64,000 bases of DNA, from positions 59,014-123,013 of the forward strand of contig JAUQQQ010000007.1 in the NCBI GenBank assembly GCA_030549815.1. The letters run 5' to 3'. Shown here piece after piece: positions 8,797 through 16,790 of the stretch. Source of the stretch: a bacterium. GTDB lineage: Bacteria; DRYD01. The notes below the pieces were generated by a model. It ran no database searches and was not told where the DNA came from. It saw nothing but the letters and a program-made list of their open reading frames with translations. How positions within the stretch are numbered: the first letter of the stretch is position 1; the number at the start of each line of letters is the position of its first letter. The position numbers and the translations under genes are program-made.

Positions 8797-10011
8797 CTAT
8801 GAGCCATTCACAGGCAAAGTAAAATAAAAAGTAGTACCTCTTGATAATTCACTTTCAAACCAAATTTTCCCACCCAATGTTTCAACCAAATATTTAACGA
8901 TAACAAGCCCCAGTCCAGTTCCCTGAGCAACAGACATAGATATCGAAGTTCTGTAAAATTTTTCAAAAATATGTGGCTTATCCTTATCAGGAATACCTAT
9001 ACCCGTATCTGAAACATAAACTAAAATTTCGTTACCTTTGTTTTGAATCCCAATCGTTATTTCTCCCCCAAAAGGAGTATACTTTATAGCATTATCAACA
9101 AGATTCAAAATTATTTGCTCAACTTTTTCTTCATCTGTAAAAACTATATATTTTTCTTCATCAGAGTAATCTCTGTTTATAACAAGGTCTGATGATTTTA
9201 TTCGTGGATAAACAAGCTCAATAACATTTTCAACTATATCTTTTAGATCCACTTTTTTCTTTTTGAAATGTACTTTAGCAGCTTCTATTCTTGATATATC
9301 AAGAATTGCATTTACAAGATTATTAAGCCTATTTGCTTCATTATAAATAATCTGAACAAATTTCATTATCTCTTCTTTTGATAAATCTTCTTGTAGAATA
9401 GTTTCTGCAAATCCCTTTATAGAAGTTAATGGAGTTCTTAATTCATGTGATACCATCGATATTATTTTTTCACTTATTTCATCAAACTTTTGCCTTAGAT
9501 ATGCTTCAGAAAAAGCATCAAAAATTATACTCCTTATGTTTTTATTCTTATCATACTTCATGAGTGCATAACCATAAGCAAGACTATCAACAACCATTTT
9601 TAATCTTTCAAATTCATTTGAATCCTGTTTTAGGTTACTTATATCAGAAAATATTTTTGTTTTTATTTCCGAAATTATTCTTATTGCCGCTATTTTTAAG
9701 TTATATATATCAAGTGCTTTTTTGTATCTTGGCTTGGATACTAATAAAAGTATAATTTGATCATCCCTATAATCGTTAGTTAAAACTAAATCATCTTGCC
9801 TAAATATCTTTCCTTTCAAACTAAGAATAAACTCAGAAATTTCGTTGAAAATCCTGTTATAAAAATCCAGGCCATACCTTTCCTTTATATTTCCTGATGA
9901 ACTTATTTCAAAACTAATCAATCCGACAACATCTTGTTCCTTAAGCTTTTCAAGTAAAAATTCCGTGCAACTAAATATGGGCTTTAAATCTGGAATTTTT
10001 ATATCACTCAT
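8797..10011 (-). CDS. Cytosolic sensor histidine kinase with degenerate GGDEF-like N-terminus
   Basis: The C-terminal half is a classic kinase: H-box VSHELRTPLTSIKGFAE (about residue 190), N-box NLVDNAIKYT, G1 VSDTGIGIP, F-box IFEKFYR and G2 GTGLGLVI. No membrane helices are visible, so it should be cytosolic. Residues about 30-105 resemble a GGDEF fold (a leading hydrophobic strand, NIKERYGLDFYNRIF) but have DYRDDQIILLL where GGDEF would be, so it cannot be a normal cyclase and may be a sensor. It overlaps the GTPase gene upstream by ATGA. No response regulator gene is adjacent. Confidence 0.88.
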   Translation of the reverse strand: MSDIKIPDLKPIFSCTEFLLEKLKEQDVVGLISFEISSSGNIKERYGLDFYNRIFNEISEFILSLKGKIFRQDDLVLTNDYRDDQIILLLVSKPRYKKALDIYNLKIAAIRIISEIKTKIFSDISNLKQDSNEFERLKMVVDSLAYGYALMKYDKNKNIRSIIFDAFSEAYLRQKFDEISEKIISMVSHELRTPLTSIKGFAETILQEDLSKEEIMKFVQIIYNEANRLNNLVNAILDISRIEAAKVHFKKKKVDLKDIVENVIELVYPRIKSSDLVINRDYSDEEKYIVFTDEEKVEQIILNLVDNAIKYTPFGGEITIGIQNKGNEILVYVSDTGIGIPDKDKPHIFEKFYRTSISMSVAQGTGLGLVIVKYLVETLGGKIWFESELSRGTTFYFTLPVNGS

Positions 10012-11333
10012 CTAACTTTACCTGAATTTAATTTTAACATTTCTTTTAATAAATCTTCCAATTTTAAATTTTCTTCTTCCAAATAATATTCTACAAAAAC
10101 AGTAGGTTTATTTAGTTTCATTAATCTTGTTATATCGAAAGGTGTAGCAATTATAACATAATCAGCATCGATTTTGTTTAGGGTTTCCTCCAATTCTTTT
10201 ATTTGCTCAGGGAAATATCCCATTGCAGGCAAAACATCATTAACTTGTTTATATTTTTCATATGTTTGTTTAATAGATCCAACAGCGTATGGTTTTGGAC
10301 TAATGATTTGACAATTATATTTTTGGGCTATCAAATATCCAGCTCCAAATGCCATGTCTCCATGTGTTAAAGTTGGGCCGTCTTCAACAACAACAACTCT
10401 TTTACCTTTAATTAGCTCAGGATTATCTATTTTTATAGGAGATTTAGCTTTAACCACAATAGCATCAGGGTTGATCCTTCTTATATTTTCTTCCACAATT
10501 CTTATATTTTCTTCAGTAGCAGAGTCTATCTTATTTATCACAGCTATGTTACACATTCTTGCATTCACTTCACCCGGGAAATAACTCAATTCATGTCCTG
10601 GTCTATGGGGATCAAAAACAGTTATCCAAACATTGGGATAAAAGAAAGGAAAATCATTATTTCCTCCATCCCAAACTATTACATCCGCCTCCTTTTCTGC
10701 TTCTCTTAATATCAGTTCATAATCAACACCTGCATAAACCACGTGTCCTTCTTTTATGTGAGGTAAATATTCCTCTCCTTCTTCAATCGTGCAATTGTGT
10801 TTTATTATATCATCGGGAGTTTCAAATCTTTGAACTATTTGTTTAGATAAATCGCCATAAGGCATAGGGTGCCTAACTACAACAACTTTAAAACCCATAT
10901 TTTTTAATACTTTTGCTACTTTCCTTGATGTTTGACTTTTCCCACACCCCGTTCTTACAGCTGTAACAGCAACAACAGGTTTAGAAGAATATAGGAAAGT
11001 ACTTTTAGGAGAGAGCAACTTAAAATTTGCTCCCGCCTTTAAAACCCTACTTGCTAAATTCATAACATAAACATGACTTACATCAGAGTATGAAAAAACT
11101 ACTTCATCAACATCAAATTGCTTTATTAATTCCTCTAATTTTTCTTCAGGGTAAATTGGTATTCCATCAGGATAATTTTTACCTGCCAAAACAGAAGGAT
11201 AAATTCTGTTTTCAATAGAAGGAATCTGAGTAGCAGTAAAAGCAACTACCCTGTATTGTTCATTATTTCTGTAATAAACATTAAAGTTATGAAAATCTCT
11301 TCCTCCTGCACCCAAAATTATTACTTTTCTCAT
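10008..11333 (-). CDS. Cyclic 2,3-diphosphoglycerate synthetase-like GTPase
   Basis: A 441-residue protein with an N-terminal nucleotide-binding fold (KVIILGAGGRDFHNF) and a central P-loop region (VTAVRTGCGKSQTSRKVAKV), then VIWDGGNNDFPF and GPTLTHGDMAFGAGY. These blocks are those of the family named for methanogen cyclic 2,3-bisphosphoglycerate synthetase. Bacterial members are common in thermophiles and are not all shown to make that solute, so I name the family rather than the product. It shares an ATGA overlap with the kinase downstream. A compatible-solute or phosphoglycerate role is inference. Confidence 0.8.
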   Translation of the reverse strand: MRKVIILGAGGRDFHNFNVYYRNNEQYRVVAFTATQIPSIENRIYPSVLAGKNYPDGIPIYPEEKLEELIKQFDVDEVVFSYSDVSHVYVMNLASRVLKAGANFKLLSPKSTFLYSSKPVVAVTAVRTGCGKSQTSRKVAKVLKNMGFKVVVVRHPMPYGDLSKQIVQRFETPDDIIKHNCTIEEGEEYLPHIKEGHVVYAGVDYELILREAEKEADVIVWDGGNNDFPFFYPNVWITVFDPHRPGHELSYFPGEVNARMCNIAVINKIDSATEENIRIVEENIRRINPDAIVVKAKSPIKIDNPELIKGKRVVVVEDGPTLTHGDMAFGAGYLIAQKYNCQIISPKPYAVGSIKQTYEKYKQVNDVLPAMGYFPEQIKELEETLNKIDADYVIIATPFDITRLMKLNKPTVFVEYYLEEENLKLEDLLKEMLKLNSGKVR

Positions 11334-11435: not shown

Positions 11436-11957
11436 TTACAACTTCTTTTTTTCGAACCAAATGAAAAGAAACAATGCCCCCAAAGCAAAAATAGAAATAA
11501 CAACAAAAGGTGAAATACCAAAGTATTGATATATAGTTATTTCTCCCAAATTCCCAAAATTCAATAAAGGTTTTAAGATAGGATAGGAGTGGGCAAAAAT
11601 TGCAGATCCAACAAGCATTCCCAGAATTGCAAAAATAGCATGTATCCTTCCTTCAGCCAAAGAAGCAGCAGCAGTCCCAGGACAGTAACCTGTTAAACTC
11701 CATCCCAAACCAAATAAAATTCCACCTATAACAATTGCACCAAACATCATTGGTTTTAAATGTAACTCTATTAAACCAAAACTATTTAACAGATTTATGC
11801 CAATAGCTCCAACGATAACAGCACTAAACATAAATTTAACAATAGTCATGTCCTTTAACAAAAGCGCAGATATTTGTTTTTCAAACCTTATAACTCTCGA
11901 TAAAGTTAGAATACTTCCAAAAAGCACTCCAAAAATAAAACCTAATATTAGATTCAT
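11436..11957 (-). CDS. YeeE/YedE-family sulfur transporter half
   Basis: A 173-residue membrane protein with about four to five helices. The conserved GWSLTGYCPGTAAASLAEG places a cysteine in a membrane loop, as in the thiosulfate channel TsuA (YeeE). TsuA is one polypeptide of about 350 residues; here the two halves are separate genes, 6 bp apart. The likely cargo is thiosulfate or another sulfane-sulfur species. It is the last gene of the sulfur operon. Confidence 0.85.
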   Translation of the reverse strand: MNLILGFIFGVLFGSILTLSRVIRFEKQISALLLKDMTIVKFMFSAVIVGAIGINLLNSFGLIELHLKPMMFGAIVIGGILFGLGWSLTGYCPGTAAASLAEGRIHAIFAILGMLVGSAIFAHSYPILKPLLNFGNLGEITIYQYFGISPFVVISIFALGALFLFIWFEKKKL

Positions 11958-11963
11958 CTTCTA

Positions 11964-12479
11964 TCACCTCCTTCTATAAATTATATTCGCAAAAATAATA
12001 CCAGATAAAAAGAAAACAATAACAGCAAGGAGAGAACTAAGAGCTAATTGCATCATTCCACTTAAACCATGTCCACTGGGACAACCATCAGCAAGTCTAA
12101 CACCAAAAGCAACAAATATACCACCAACAAAAGCCAAAAATGCACGCAAAATAAAGTTATTACCAAAATATTCCTTAAAAACTGGTGGTACAAATTCAAT
12201 TTTGAAAGATTTTGTCAAAAAAGCAGTTATCAAAGCACCTACAAATATTCCAACTACAAACATAAACTGCCAATCAATGTTTAAACCTATTTTACTAAAG
12301 TATTCATTATAAAAGTTAGGTACGCAAGCATTTTCTATCATTCCGGAAATTTTAGCAAAAGTAGTAGAAGTTCCAAAGAAATTTGTTTTTCCGGTTAAAA
12401 CAGTTGTTAAATAGGCACTTAAAGTTGCCAAAACACCTACTAAGGCACCTCCAACATAAGGGTTCAGTTCTTTATTCAT
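11964..12479 (-). CDS. YeeE/YedE-family sulfur transporter half
   Basis: The second half-transporter, 171 residues, with about four helices and the motif RLADGCPSGHGLSGMM, which carries the other conserved membrane cysteine of the family. With the next gene it forms the two-part TsuA/PmpAB-type pore. A ribosome-binding site (AAAGGAGATGG) precedes its ATG. Being just downstream of the CsoR/CstR-like repressor suggests sulfur-dependent control. Confidence 0.87.
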   Translation of the reverse strand: MNKELNPYVGGALVGVLATLSAYLTTVLTGKTNFFGTSTTFAKISGMIENACVPNFYNEYFSKIGLNIDWQFMFVVGIFVGALITAFLTKSFKIEFVPPVFKEYFGNNFILRAFLAFVGGIFVAFGVRLADGCPSGHGLSGMMQLALSSLLAVIVFFLSGIIFANIIYRRR

Positions 12480-12500
12480 AATTACTCCATCTCCTTTCCA

Positions 12501-12797
12501 CTACAAGTATTTTTCTATTAAACTGCTGACAATCAATATTTTTCTTTTTATTTCTTCATCTTCTTTTTCTTTTATTTTTAAGCAACAGTTGCTAAGTAAT
12601 ATTTTAGAAACAAGATTAGTAAAAGTTTTGTGTAGAGCTTGTCTAACTGCTGCTAACTGATGAATAACGTTATCACAGCTTTCTTCTCTCTCTATCATGT
12701 GAATAATAGCCCTTATTTGTCCTTCTATCTTGGAAAGCCTATTAATCAGTTCCTTTTTATCTGCTTTGTCAATTATCTTTATCTCATTCTTTAACAT
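12501..12797 (-). CDS. CsoR/RcnR-family repressor, probably persulfide-sensing (CstR-like)
   Basis: A 98-residue all-helical repressor. LSKIEGQIRAIIHMIEREE and CDNVIHQLAAVRQAL are the family signature. Cys41 matches the first metal or thiol ligand. The histidine used by copper CsoR falls on Ile66, so copper sensing is unlikely. The second ligand position is Asn70, followed at once by Cys71-Cys72. A cysteine pair without the histidine fits CstR-type sensing of persulfides, shifted by one residue. Every gene around it handles sulfur, supporting that role. It lies inside the operon it presumably controls. Confidence 0.85.
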   Translation of the reverse strand: MLKNEIKIIDKADKKELINRLSKIEGQIRAIIHMIEREESCDNVIHQLAAVRQALHKTFTNLVSKILLSNCCLKIKEKEDEEIKRKILIVSSLIEKYL

Positions 12798-12810
12798 AGT
12801 AATTCCCCCC

Positions 12811-13914
12811 TTAAACTAAGATAGCTCCAATAAATCCGATAAAAAATGGTTTTATACCTATTCCTTTAAAGACAGAAAAATTAGTATTCAAACCAACAGC
12901 TGCCATAGCAGTGCCTAAAAGATATTTTGAACCCCACAATTCTCCGATATTATTAACCAAATTTTTCCAGGTATTTGCATCAAACAATCCCAAAGCAAGT
13001 CCTCCATTGATCAAATTTATATCTCCAAGAGACCTAATTATAGCCATACCAATGAAACCGATTATAAAAGCAGGTATTAACGATATAATATTTATTTTCT
13101 GATTACCATCAGAAATTTGGTTTCTCAAGTATAAAAAAGATAATAATGGTACAACAATAGCCAAAAATAAATTTCTTGTCAATTTAGTAACAGTTGCAGT
13201 TTTAAATACAATATCATCTTTAAATACTTCCTTATAGGTCATTGCAGCACCAACAACCTGAGATGTTTCGTGTATTGCAGTTCCAAGGAATAAACCTATT
13301 TGTTCAGAAGTAGAAAAAATGAATTTAGCTAAATAAGGATAAATAAACATTGCCAACAATCCAAAGATAGTAACATTAGCGACAGCGTAAGCAATTTCCT
13401 TATTATCTGCTTTTATAGCAGGCGAAACAGAAACAATAGCAGTAACACCACAAATACTACTTCCTGCAGCAATAAGTGTTCCCAACTTCTCAGGTAACTT
13501 CATCATATTGTTAACATAATATATAAAAATTAAAGCAGAAGCAATAACAACAACAACTATAGGTATTCCCCAAAATCCTAATTTGAGCACTTCATTAATA
13601 CTTAACTTTATACCAACAAATATTATACCAAGCCTAAGTATTTTTGTTACGGAAAAATCAATTCCTTTTTTAAAAATATCAGAAAGTTTAAATAAATTAG
13701 CAACAATTATACCCAAAACTATGGCAATTAAAACGGAAGATATAGGGCTACTTTTTCCAGTAGGATCTATTCCCTGCAAACTAAGCAAAAATTTACCCAA
13801 ATAATCAGCAATAGGTATACTTAAAAGCATAATAATGATAGATAAAAAAAGCCCAGGAAGAATCTTAGGTATATCGGATACCTTATCAACCCCGAACAAT
13901 GCTTTAACCAACAT
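12811..13914 (-). CDS. YeiH/UPF0324-family putative sulfate or sulfite exporter
   Basis: A 367-residue protein with about ten membrane helices. Conserved family blocks are visible: LGIIFVGIKLSINEVLKLG, the re-entrant GSSICGVTAIVSVSPAIKA and the loop GTAIHETSQVVGAAMTY. The family is annotated as a sulfate or sulfonate exporter. In this operon it would remove sulfite or other oxidised products of persulfide dioxygenase. It is 16 bp from the DsrE-like gene and 13 bp from the repressor gene. Confidence 0.85.
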   Translation of the reverse strand: MLVKALFGVDKVSDIPKILPGLFLSIIIMLLSIPIADYLGKFLLSLQGIDPTGKSSPISSVLIAIVLGIIVANLFKLSDIFKKGIDFSVTKILRLGIIFVGIKLSINEVLKLGFWGIPIVVVVIASALIFIYYVNNMMKLPEKLGTLIAAGSSICGVTAIVSVSPAIKADNKEIAYAVANVTIFGLLAMFIYPYLAKFIFSTSEQIGLFLGTAIHETSQVVGAAMTYKEVFKDDIVFKTATVTKLTRNLFLAIVVPLLSFLYLRNQISDGNQKINIISLIPAFIIGFIGMAIIRSLGDINLINGGLALGLFDANTWKNLVNNIGELWGSKYLLGTAMAAVGLNTNFSVFKGIGIKPFFIGFIGAILV

Positions 13915-13930
13915 TTTTATTCCTCCTTTC

Positions 13931-14527
13931 CTAAATAAATATAGTCATTGAAGAATTTAATGAATGTGATAAAAAGTAAGCAACTCCTCCTGATTCAGTT
14001 CCCTCAATTAATTCCTCATCTTCTATTCCCAATACATCCTTTGACATTTCACAAGCTATAAACTTAACTCCCAATTCCTTTGCCATTTTTATTAAATCTT
14101 CTAAAGAAGAAACATTTTTTTCTTTCATCATCATTTTCAACATTTTAGATCCCAAACCAAAGAAGTTCATTTTAGATACTGGTAAATTAGAAGCACTTGC
14201 TGGATTTAGAAAAGCAAATAGTCTTTGATGCCACTTTTTATTAGATAATTTTTTCTTCACTTTTATAGCATTCAGTCCCCAAAAAGTGAAAAATACACTG
14301 ACTTCCTTACCAAAGGTAGCAGCACCAGTAGCAATAATAAGAGCTGCCAAAACTCTATCTAAATCGCCAGAAAAAACAACTATACCAACTTTATTTTTCT
14401 TTTCCAATATATCAGCCAACTGTTCCTCTAAATAACTTATTCGTTTTTTCAAATTTTCGATTTCAATTTTATAATTTTCAAGTTGATCCACATTTTTTAG
14501 ATCTTGATTTAAACTTTGGGAATTCAT
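13931..14527 (-). CDS. DsrE/F-like (DsrE2) sulfur carrier protein
   Basis: A 198-residue protein with an N-terminal coiled coil (about residues 15-45), then a DsrE2/peroxiredoxin-like core beginning VGIVVFSGDLDRVLAALI. FIACEMSKDVLGI holds the conserved cysteine expected to carry sulfane sulfur, and GVAYFL is near the C-terminus. DsrE2 proteins pass sulfur to or from TusA and are often membrane-associated; here the helix AALIIATGAATFGKEVSVFF is moderately hydrophobic. It lies 15 bp downstream of tusA, and the pairing is common in sulfur oxidisers. Confidence 0.88.
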   Translation of the reverse strand: MNSQSLNQDLKNVDQLENYKIEIENLKKRISYLEEQLADILEKKNKVGIVVFSGDLDRVLAALIIATGAATFGKEVSVFFTFWGLNAIKVKKKLSNKKWHQRLFAFLNPASASNLPVSKMNFFGLGSKMLKMMMKEKNVSSLEDLIKMAKELGVKFIACEMSKDVLGIEDEELIEGTESGGVAYFLSHSLNSSMTIFI

Positions 14528-14542
14528 ATCTTTCCCTCCATT

Positions 14543-14788
14543 TTACTTTTTCTTTACGTAATGAACATAAATTTCTTTTCCATTTTCATCTTTTTCCGTT
14601 TCTTGTTTTATTAGTTCAATGGTTTTATCTGTGTTAGCCCATCCTTGAAAATCTTTGATAGATCCTTTATCTGTAGTTAATACTTTAAGTATTTTTCCAC
14701 TTTCCACTTTATTAAGTTCTTGTTTAGTTTTAACAATTGGCATAGGGCAATTCAATCCTCTAACATCCAACATTACATCGTAATTCAT
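14543..14788 (-). CDS. tusA: TusA-family sulfur carrier protein
   Basis: An 81-residue protein with the diagnostic LDVRGLNCPMPIVKTKQEL; the Cys of the CPxP motif carries persulfide sulfur. The remainder (GKILKVLTTDKGSIKDFQGW) matches the alpha-beta sandwich of TusA. AAAAGGAGGTGTG precedes the ATG. It lies between the rhodanese-dioxygenase and the DsrE-like carrier, so it is likely a relay between them. Confidence 0.95.
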   Translation of the reverse strand: MNYDVMLDVRGLNCPMPIVKTKQELNKVESGKILKVLTTDKGSIKDFQGWANTDKTIELIKQETEKDENGKEIYVHYVKKK

Positions 14789-14817
14789 AATTCACACCTC
14801 CTTTTAGGATTTTTTAC

Positions 14818-14840
14818 AGGAGGGGGGATTACCCCCTCCT
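14818..14840. promoter_or_regulatory. G-tract/C-tract inverted repeat upstream of tusA
   Basis: A perfect 9-bp inverted repeat, AGGAGGGGG and CCCCCTCCT around a GATTA centre, stands out in an AT-rich genome. It lies between the rhodanese-dioxygenase stop and tusA. There is no T-run after it on either strand, so it is not a standard terminator. G-tract/C-tract palindromes are operators of CsoR/RcnR-family repressors, and such a repressor is encoded in this operon. A transcript-stabilising hairpin is the alternative. Confidence 0.5.
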
Positions 14841-14848
14841 ACTATCTT

Positions 14849-16036
14849 TTACACATAAGCTTGTGAAAGAGCACAAACATTCTTTCCAGTTTCTAATTCA
14901 TCAGCCTTTTCATCATCTACTTCAATTAACCCAGCATTAACTCTTTTTATTTCAACATATTGAGGAGGAAATACAGGTAAGCTGGAAAGCATAAATCTTA
15001 TAAATTCTTCCTTACCTTTTGTGATTAATAAATTCAATGCGTCGTTTGTTTTCTTTAGATTTCCTAATTTTTCAATATATAGTCCTTGCTCATTAGCTTC
15101 TGAGATTTTACTGAAGTGTGCGGGTAAAACTATCGTTTCGTCAGGTAATTGAGTTAGTTTATAAAGAGATTCTGCTTGTAGAGGAGCCCATGTTTCTCCT
15201 CTTCCTCCCAAATCGGGTCTTGCTACAGAAAGGATAAATATGGTATCTCCTGTAAATAGGTATTTTCCATTAAGTAGAAATACGACATTACCCAAGGTAT
15301 GGCCCGGTACGTGAATAACTTCTATCTTAGCCGAACCCAAATTGAAAACATCACCATCTTTCAAGTATTCAAAATTAAGTTTTCCTGGGATCATATCTAT
15401 TGGATGTATTGCATCATAAGGATGTAGATAATATGGAACGTTTAAAATTTTTGATAATTTAGGTCCTGAACTGATATGGTCTGCATGAGCGTGAGTATCA
15501 AGGATAAACTTGATTTTTGCTCCCTTTTGATTAATGAAATCAGTGTATTTTTCAATATGTCTAAGAGGATCTATGATTGTAGCTTCTTTATTTGAAATTA
15601 TAATCCAGCTGAGGTCACCTCGAGATATCCTACTTACTTGGTAGATTGATAATTCTGGTGTTTCAATAACAGTTTTATAGTCGTAGTAATTAAACCATTC
15701 CTTCATTCCTCCTACGACATTATAAACGTCGTATCCCAATTCTGAGAGGTTTCGTGCGAAGATTTCAGAAGTTCCACCTTCTGAACAAATTACGTATATT
15801 GGTTGATCTTTGGAAATGGCATTACTAAGATTTTTAGTTATATAGTTTTTCATATCTTTATCTATGTCTCCTGTTTCAATCATTTGAGCGTAGTATATAT
15901 TAAGGATTCTAAAATTATCTTTTCCTTCGATTTTATGGTTTTTAAATTTATCAGGACTCCTGAGGTCTATTATTGTAATGTTTTCATCCTTCAGCATCTT
16001 TTCATACAGTTCAGAAGGACTTATATTTTTTGTCAT
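14849..16036 (-). CDS. Rhodanese-persulfide dioxygenase fusion (ETHE1/CstB-like)
   Basis: The N-terminal rhodanese domain (about residues 1-115) has the active loop ICSEGGTSEIF. The C-terminal metallo-beta-lactamase domain has THAHADH, VPGHTLGN and FTGDTIF, the iron-binding set of persulfide dioxygenases. It should oxidise glutathione- or low-molecular-weight persulfide to sulfite and move sulfane sulfur. The domain order, rhodanese first, is the reverse of CstB. Length is about 395. A GTG at 16045 extends the frame, but AGGAGGTG overlaps that codon and is correctly spaced for the ATG at 16036. It is first in the operon. Confidence 0.92.
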   Translation of the reverse strand: MTKNISPSELYEKMLKDENITIIDLRSPDKFKNHKIEGKDNFRILNIYYAQMIETGDIDKDMKNYITKNLSNAISKDQPIYVICSEGGTSEIFARNLSELGYDVYNVVGGMKEWFNYYDYKTVIETPELSIYQVSRISRGDLSWIIISNKEATIIDPLRHIEKYTDFINQKGAKIKFILDTHAHADHISSGPKLSKILNVPYYLHPYDAIHPIDMIPGKLNFEYLKDGDVFNLGSAKIEVIHVPGHTLGNVVFLLNGKYLFTGDTIFILSVARPDLGGRGETWAPLQAESLYKLTQLPDETIVLPAHFSKISEANEQGLYIEKLGNLKKTNDALNLLITKGKEEFIRFMLSSLPVFPPQYVEIKRVNAGLIEVDDEKADELETGKNVCALSQAYV

Positions 16037-16070
16037 TTTACTCACCTCCTGTTACTTTACATTTTATCCC

Positions 16071-16104
16071 TACACCTATACCCTATACCCATACCCCTAT
16101 ACCC
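16071..16104. repeat. Tandem C-tract repeats upstream of the sulfur operon
   Basis: Four to five copies of a (T)ATACCC(C) unit run in a row about 35-70 bp before the start of the rhodanese-dioxygenase gene. The position is that of an operator or promoter. Short C-tracts flanked by TA resemble half-sites of CsoR-family operators, but here they are direct repeats rather than palindromes. The binding role is inference. Confidence 0.4.
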
Positions 16105-16304
16105 TTTTTTCTTCCCATTAATATATTTATACAAAAAAAATTAAAATTCCTCCTATTTTATAAACTTTTTCATAGAGATTTTATACCTCAAAACTGTAGA
16201 AGAAACCCTTAATCTCTGGAAAAAACCCTTCCTCTGTTTAAACAGAGTTTTTTGAGTTCTATATAAACTCTAATTTTGACAGTGCCTATTCTACTTTTTT
16301 TCTA
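16105..16304. other. Gene-free stretch, likely downstream part of the TnpB remnant
   Basis: No coding frame is supported. The minus strand downstream of the TnpB fragment contains the hairpin CTCTGTTTAAACAGAG and nearby AAGGGTTTTTTCC and AAGGGTTTCTTC repeats. This could be the degraded right end of the element whose TnpB fragment lies at 16305-16472. Confidence 0.3.
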
Positions 16305-16472: not shown

Positions 16473-16497
16473 CTACAACATTTTTACAAAACCCAAG

Positions 16498-16675
16498 CCA
16501 GAAGGCTCTCCTTTTCAAGCGAAGCCTGCCTGCAAGCAGGCGAAGCCTCCCTTGGGGTAGGCAAAGCCTCCCTTCGGGTAAAAGAGAGATGGAATGGCTG
16601 AAACCAACAATCTATAAAGCTATTTATCTCTCACCTCTACAGGTGGGAGATAGATGGCTTGAAATTTTTCAAAAA
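16498..16675 (+). repeat. IS200/IS605-associated hairpin repeat (locus B)
   Basis: CCAGAAGGCTCTCC is followed by palindromic GAAGCCTGCCTGC/GCAGGC repeats, CTTCGGGTAAAAGAGAG and an imperfect hairpin formed by GAGAGATGGAATGGCT and AGCTATTTATCTCTC around ACCAACAATCTATAA. Nearly the same string occurs inverted at 35985-36110, and a shortened version in the 4.5 kb remnant. A second small hairpin (CACCTCTACAGGTG) follows only here. It is GC-richer than its surroundings and non-coding. Confidence 0.6.
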
Positions 16676-16689
16676 AGGAATATAATATA

Positions 16690-16790
16690 AAAAGAGAAAA
16701 GCCTCTGCACTGGGGTCTAACTCCTATATTCGTGTAAGCTTTAGGAGGAAGCTCCTCGTTTTAACGAGGAGAGGAGGTCACTATACCATT
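16690..16790 (+). ncRNA. Omega-RNA-like right end of an IS200/IS605-type element
   Basis: The stretch CACTGGGGTCTAACTCC, then GTAAGCTTTAGGAGGAAGC, then the perfect hairpin CTCCTCG-TTTTAA-CGAGGAG and finally AGGAGGTCACTA has the layout of the 3' end of TnpB guide RNAs (omega RNA), where the hairpin precedes a GGTCAC terminus and the next bases act as guide. No tnpB lies upstream on this strand; the nearby TnpB fragment is on the other strand. It may be a solitary, possibly still transcribed, relic. Confidence 0.55.

Follow-up and report, generated by a model that had tools for sequence, protein, structure and literature searches.

The 64-kb window analyzed here (the whole 64,000-nt stretch taken from contig JAUQQQ010000007.1) lies within the 1.59-Mb, 23-contig genome (G000) of an uncultured hot-spring bacterium, Candidatus Calescibacterium. 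From position 16036 down to 11436 it contains seven minus-strand genes that quite probably constitute an operon for the homeostasis of reactive sulfur (persulfide), of the yrk/cst kind and regulated by a CstR-like repressor; the catalysis, sensing and transport ascribed to it are those predicted from the protein families. The genes code, in order, for a protein joining a rhodanese and a metallo-β-lactamase (MBL) domain, TusA, DsrE2, YeiH, a CsoR-family repressor, and the C-terminal and N-terminal halves of YeeE, with intergenic gaps of 60, 15, 16, 13, 21 and 6 nt. Pfam and NCBIfam concur with all seven family assignments; the tight run of seven families named in this order by an initial annotation, made from the sequence alone, is therefore present as described. 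The genes, preceded by a putative operator, are as follows:

16068–16105, minus strand: array of G-tract half-sites, GGGTATAGGGGTATGGGTATAGGGTATAGGTGTAGGG, putative CstR operator, with the core ATAGGGGTATGGGTA at 16086–16100.
14849–16036, minus strand: rhodanese (N-terminal) plus MBL (C-terminal) protein of the YrkH type, persulfide dioxygenase-type (Pfam Rhodanese, 7e-15; Lactamase_B, 4e-19).
14543–14788, minus strand: TusA sulfur carrier with a CPMP motif, Cys14 (Pfam TusA, 5e-19).
13931–14527, minus strand: DsrE2 sulfur carrier (Pfam DrsE_2, 7e-50; NCBIfam SulfCarrDsrE2, 8e-25, below its cut-off).
12811–13914, minus strand: putative sulfite exporter of the YeiH/PSE family (Pfam PF03601, Cons_hypoth698/YeiH, 7e-72; TIGR00698, 2e-47, below its cut-off).
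12501–12797, minus strand: CsoR-family, CstR-like repressor (Pfam Trns_repr_metal, 1e-18).
11964–12479, minus strand: C-terminal half of YeeE/YedE, PmpA-like, with Cys133 in a GCPSGH motif (Sulf_transp model positions 175–309).
11436–11957, minus strand: N-terminal half of YeeE/YedE, PmpB-like, with Cys92 in a GYCPG motif (Sulf_transp model positions 14–151, plus DUF6691).

The strongest evidence found here for CstR-type control of the operon is the core of the predicted operator, an array of GGGTAT-like half-sites lying head-to-tail ahead of the first gene. G000 and the genomes of two sister species (G002 and G003) each contain the 15-mer ATAGGGGTATGGGTA exactly once, in every case at this promoter, and the next-best match has two mismatches. 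This core is also found inside the element ATACCCATAGGGGTATGGGTAT upstream of the yrk genes of Paenibacillus. A cognate G-tract/TA operator is thus present, as a putative site, upstream of the operon, and its core is recognizable across phyla; this would extend CstR-type control of reactive sulfur to a deep-branching, uncultured phylum of thermophiles. The repressor itself has Cys41 and a C-terminal pair, Cys71/Cys72, and alignments place a Leu where the copper-binding CsoR proteins have a His, although the register of the second cysteine in the repressor alignment is shifted by a gap. With two sensing cysteines, a CsoR-family fold and no copper-site His, it has the features of CstR, which bears out the CsoR/CstR-like repressor of the initial annotation. 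Its best sequence match in the PDB, 7mq3, is filed as CsoR, but is presumably the CstR of Streptococcus pneumoniae.

These parts suggest the following mechanism. In its reduced form, the repressor would occupy the GGGGTAT operator ahead of the first gene. On a rise in persulfide or sulfane sulfur, its cysteines would become cross-linked via sulfur bridges, releasing the DNA and allowing the operon to be expressed. The two YeeE halves, probably acting as a heterodimer, would admit sulfane sulfur to the cytoplasm in the form of thiosulfate or some other sulfur species; alternatively, it would arise inside the cell. It might then be handed between TusA, DsrE2 and the rhodanese domain. Excess persulfide would be oxidized with O2 to sulfite by the MBL domain, and YeiH would expel the sulfite. 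A role in persulfide metabolism is consistent with the clustering of the same parts in Bacilli and haloarchaea, and with the finding that YrkD, the repressor of one such cluster in Bacillus licheniformis, is a sensor of sulfane sulfur (PMC9918477).

Close relatives of the rhodanese-MBL gene were detected in three other genomes labelled as the same genus (G001, G002 and G003), one of them deposited as Candidatus Calescibacterium sp. SKYB25. G002 and G003 have the seven genes in identical order, with the same downstream neighbor and protein identities of roughly 67–83%; since the order recurs in two sister species, the arrangement is not the product of chance or an assembly artefact. Co-transcription of the seven genes, as predicted from the sequence, is supported by their spacing, common strand and conserved order, and by the absence of any U-tailed coding-strand hairpin between them. 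The G001 locus, on a 3.3-kb contig of a genome only 71% complete, contains the genes for the rhodanese-MBL protein, TusA, DsrE2 and the repressor, in that order. The gap between the last two is only 15 nt, with no YeiH in it, the gene after the repressor differs from that of the seven-gene operon, and no Sulf_transp match was found in the sequence available for this incomplete genome. The G001 repressor (L034, 2680–2967) keeps Cys41 and has lost the C-terminal cysteine pair, and ATAGGGGTATGGGTA is not present in G001, nor in G004 or G005 (another genus of the family), even if one mismatch is allowed. G001 thus combines a repressor lacking the second cysteine site with the absence of YeiH, of the YeeE halves and of the operator core, making it a natural comparison. 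As it keeps only the dioxygenase, the carriers and the repressor, the sensor-carrier-dioxygenase set looks like the core of the system, and the transporters like accessories.

No full-length rhodanese-MBL protein was found in G004, G005 or G006, the last being the only other genome of the order. A contig scan with the dioxygenase as query matched the three sister species only, and one with YeiH as query gave no matches. The survey for the seven-gene order proposed in the initial annotation gave a divided result: the order was recovered in the two Calescibacterium sister species, but not at 40 DsrE2-centred and 12 YrkH-type loci of other phyla, beside which, several of the contigs being short, neither YeiH nor CstR was detected.

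Both YeeE halves conserve their GCPSGH and GYCPG cysteines, which align with those of haloarchaeal halves. Two short proteins corresponding to the C- and N-terminal halves of YeeE, with one conserved cysteine each, are what defines PmpA and PmpB; PmpA corresponds to the C-terminal half and PmpB to the N-terminal one, and the two have been proposed to form a heterodimer (PMC11582611). At 171 and 173 amino acids, the proteins described here are longer than the ∼130 given for PmpAB. A full-length TsuA, a single chain of 330–350 amino acids with three conserved cysteines, was also considered and rejected, there being two separate genes and an NCBIfam TsuA score far below the cut-off. An assimilatory operon, in which the YeeE halves and TusA would provide TsuA/TsuB-like uptake of thiosulfate for biosynthesis (of cysteine and thio-cofactors) while the dioxygenase, the repressor and YeiH cleared the overflow, would explain why the halves match the two halves of the TsuA models, and TsuA does require a TusA-like partner (PMC11582611). 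It is nevertheless unlikely: the half-length PmpAB proteins are described as serving no assimilatory purposes (PMC11582611), G001 retains the dioxygenase, the carriers and the repressor without YeeE, so that import is not the core, and an operator of the persulfide type, like the first gene, indicates stress.

With regard to the other transporter, YeiH renders Salmonella resistant to sulfite (PMC12880088), and in Hyphomicrobium its transcript is the one most raised by thiosulfate (PMC11582611), so that sulfite export can reasonably be inferred for the putative exporter of Calescibacterium. Its position beside a predicted sulfite-making enzyme supports YeiH, only recently tied to sulfite resistance, as an alternative to TauE. 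In a sample of 386 genomes, which is not a census, only two comparably close YeiH proteins (at the threshold used) were found outside the genus, in unrelated surroundings. The replacement of TauE by YeiH in such an operon, which the initial annotation had singled out, thus does look unusual, and was confined to the genus among the sampled genomes. The YeiH of G000 scores above the Pfam cut-off, but reaches only 161.9 bits against the TIGR00698 cut-off of 232.6; this copy is ∼34 residues shorter at its C-terminus than those of G002 and G003, ending 13 nt before the repressor gene. The shortening could be genuine or could stem from an error in the assembly.

The start of the rhodanese-MBL gene is better placed at the ATG at 16036, as the initial annotation had it, than at the GTG at 16045 that opens the longest reading frame, because the ATG lies behind an AGGAGG that the GTG overlaps, and because the sister genes begin at the corresponding ATG. 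Residue numbers for this protein are nonetheless counted from the GTG. In an alignment of 24 homologues, the rhodanese Cys87 and the metal ligands His185, Asp189, His249, Asp267 and His310 were present in all, and His187 and His190 in 22; the Calescibacterium protein has every one of them. These ligands are common to hydrolases and dioxygenases, and the residues alone do not settle the chemistry. A profile built from nine homologues ranked the CstB-like proteins 3tp9 (2e-40) and 3r2u (4e-39) first, followed by 4ysb (3e-28), 9rhq, 8zbd, BpPRF and ETHE1, with GloB and glyoxalase II (∼1e-14) well behind. In a search with the predicted fold, the top ranks were taken by ETHE1, CstB-like proteins and BpPRF; the AlphaFold model used was of moderate quality (mean predicted local distance difference test score, pLDDT, of 69), with the last 44 residues unreliable. 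From these rankings, persulfide dioxygenase is the most likely activity for the MBL domain, in keeping with the reactive-sulfur operon proposed in the initial annotation.

The alternative that the MBL domain is a glyoxalase II-like hydrolase, or some other enzyme, and that the operon merely relays and exports sulfur, can draw on the ambiguity of the ligands, on GloB being the best NCBIfam match (below its cut-off) and on the lack of a heme-copper oxidase in the genus. It is very unlikely, since CstB-like proteins, ETHE1 and other persulfide dioxygenases outrank glyoxalase II in both the profile and fold searches, the fusion to rhodanese and the TusA, DsrE2 and CstR neighbors suit a persulfide substrate, and a bd oxidase indicates exposure to O2. 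A gene for this oxidase was present in G000, and four of the five related genomes searched also gave a match (that in G001 being a fragment), which renders O2 chemistry plausible in this organism. A metal-stress operon, with a repressor that senses copper or some other metal, is highly improbable: the fold is that of the CsoR family and the closest NCBIfam names are metal sensors, but all of these score far below the cut-off, a Leu replaces the His that completes the Cys-His-Cys copper site of CsoR (and that the CopZ-linked CsoR in L088 retains), no metal transporter or chaperone belongs to the operon, and the operator core is shared with a yrk operon.

Several observations weigh against a CstR-regulated persulfide operon as proposed. 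The missing C-terminal residues mean that YeiH may be impaired in this genome, and the locus of a fourth species, G001, has neither YeiH nor YeeE. The Calescibacterium half-sites are direct, the inverted left half being missing, unlike in the CstR operators of Bacilli. No heme-copper oxidase was found in the genus genomes searched, and no sqr among the seven operon genes, the rest of the genome not having been searched for it. Other Calescamantes populations are reported to have a heme-copper oxidase, and Candidatus C. nevadense an sqr-like gene (PMC4791363).

In the Bacilli, the yrkDEFHIJ genes code for YrkD (a CstR homologue), YrkE (DsrE), YrkF (TusA-rhodanese), YrkH (rhodanese-MBL, described as a hypothetical persulfide dioxygenase; PMC9918477), YrkI (TusA) and YrkJ (TauE). 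They share with the Calescibacterium operon the clustering of a CstR-type repressor, DsrE2, TusA and a rhodanese-first MBL protein and, in Paenibacillus, the 15-nt operator core. They differ in that TauE takes the place of YeiH, YeeE halves are absent, additional rhodanese genes are present and the operator is an inverted repeat (TACCC-GGGTA in the other yrk promoters); further, the repressor gene opens the Mesobacillus and Sporosarcina clusters, whereas it is fifth in Calescibacterium. In haloarchaea (Haloterrigena and Halorussus) the same five core parts are found, the two YeeE halves lying directly after the rhodanese-MBL gene. However, TusA and DsrE2 are divergent, neither CstR nor YeiH is present, TauE is nearby in Halorussus, and the dioxygenase is only ∼38% identical to the Calescibacterium protein. 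The operon thus likely combines control of the Bacilli type with a haloarchaea-like core, with YeiH as the likely exporter.

The cst operon of Staphylococcus aureus (CstR, TauE, CstA, CstB and SQR) is alike in placing sulfurtransferases and a dioxygenase-sulfurtransferase under CstR. A staphylococcal cst locus proper has sqr, cstA and cstB under this control, and neither an sqr nor a CstA-type fusion occurs among the seven genes: the carriers that are fused in CstA are unfused here, and YeiH stands in for TauE. The rhodanese domain is C-terminal in the CstB-type protein 3r2u, but N-terminal in that of Calescibacterium. In Acinetobacter and Serratia, yeeE-yedE-pdo2 operons also combine two short YeeE proteins with a persulfide dioxygenase, controlled by a sensor of persulfide (BigR/PmpR; PMC7315123, PMC11582611), but this sensor, BigR, is not a CsoR-family repressor, and TusA, DsrE2 and YeiH have not been reported in the operon. 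The YeiH of Salmonella belongs to the same Pfam family, but its neighbor is the LysR regulator YeiE and it is not part of a persulfide operon.

Of the three features regarded as distinctive in the initial annotation, two were thus already known. The rhodanese-first order is that of the YrkH type, to which the protein belongs by its N-terminal rhodanese, C-terminal MBL domain and full-length similarity: relatives in Bacilli and haloarchaea align over 96–99% of the query with 35–37% identity. The split importer corresponds to the PmpA/PmpB pair (PMC11582611), and haloarchaea place YeeE halves after the same gene. The nearest rhodanese-MBL relative outside the genus (53% identity) is in G196, and a tree groups it with the Calescibacterium proteins with a support of 0.99. 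At the G196 locus (L095, 7356–15153), the rhodanese-MBL gene comes after two TusA genes and one of the DsrE2 family, and before a pair encoding a molybdopterin oxidoreductase and an Fe-S/NrfD protein. The rhodanese-MBL protein is here again found among sulfur carriers, and this pair is possibly a route for the onward oxidation of sulfite or sulfur. A Geobacillus plasmid, deposited without annotation, has within a single stretch (L094, 6001–11694) two rhodanese-MBL genes along with genes for TusA, DsrE2 and CstR-like proteins.

Outside the MBL fold, the rhodanese-MBL protein has in its C-terminal tail a GxNxCA motif (residues 387–392) whose Cys391, invariant in 24 of 24 YrkH-type homologues, is possibly a third sulfur-handling cysteine; the structural model does not allow this tail cysteine to be placed. 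In DsrE2, Cys159 is invariant within the genus. The half-site array coincides with a canonical G-quadruplex motif, the only one in the window (16081–16104, minus strand). A motif of this kind occupies the same promoter position in G002 (L032, 5824–5844, minus strand) and G003 (L033, 8120–8144, minus strand), but not in G001 (L034). Mononucleotide shuffling gave a mean of 0.015 motifs, a null that ignores the tandem repetition creating the motif. The simplest reading is that the motif is a by-product of the tandem operator half-sites, although a separate role is possible. A search of the literature on G-quadruplexes and CsoR returned unrelated papers only, and no description of a head-to-tail GGGTAT array as a CstR operator was encountered. 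It is doubtful, although conceivable, that expression at high temperature might be gated both by the repressor on the array and by folding of the DNA or mRNA there, and that Cys391 of YrkH-type dioxygenases might relay sulfur between the rhodanese and metal sites.

One further element lies within the operon:

14817–14841, minus strand: intercistronic hairpin between the dioxygenase gene and tusA (-21.7 kcal/mol, z -2.8).

The two sister species have hairpins at the same junction, differing in sequence. A terminator was ruled out on the coding strand, the U-tract being missing; a hairpin conserved in position may tune the ratio of the dioxygenase to the products of the downstream genes. The next gene downstream of the operon is on the same strand, 102 nt away (10008–11333), and also adjoins the operon in G002 and G003. 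Its 441-amino acid product has no Pfam or NCBIfam match, and presumably resembles cyclic 2,3-diphosphoglycerate synthase. Upstream of the operon, direct repeats rich in GC occur together with a long hairpin in the region 16480–16790, and these look like the remains of a mobile element.

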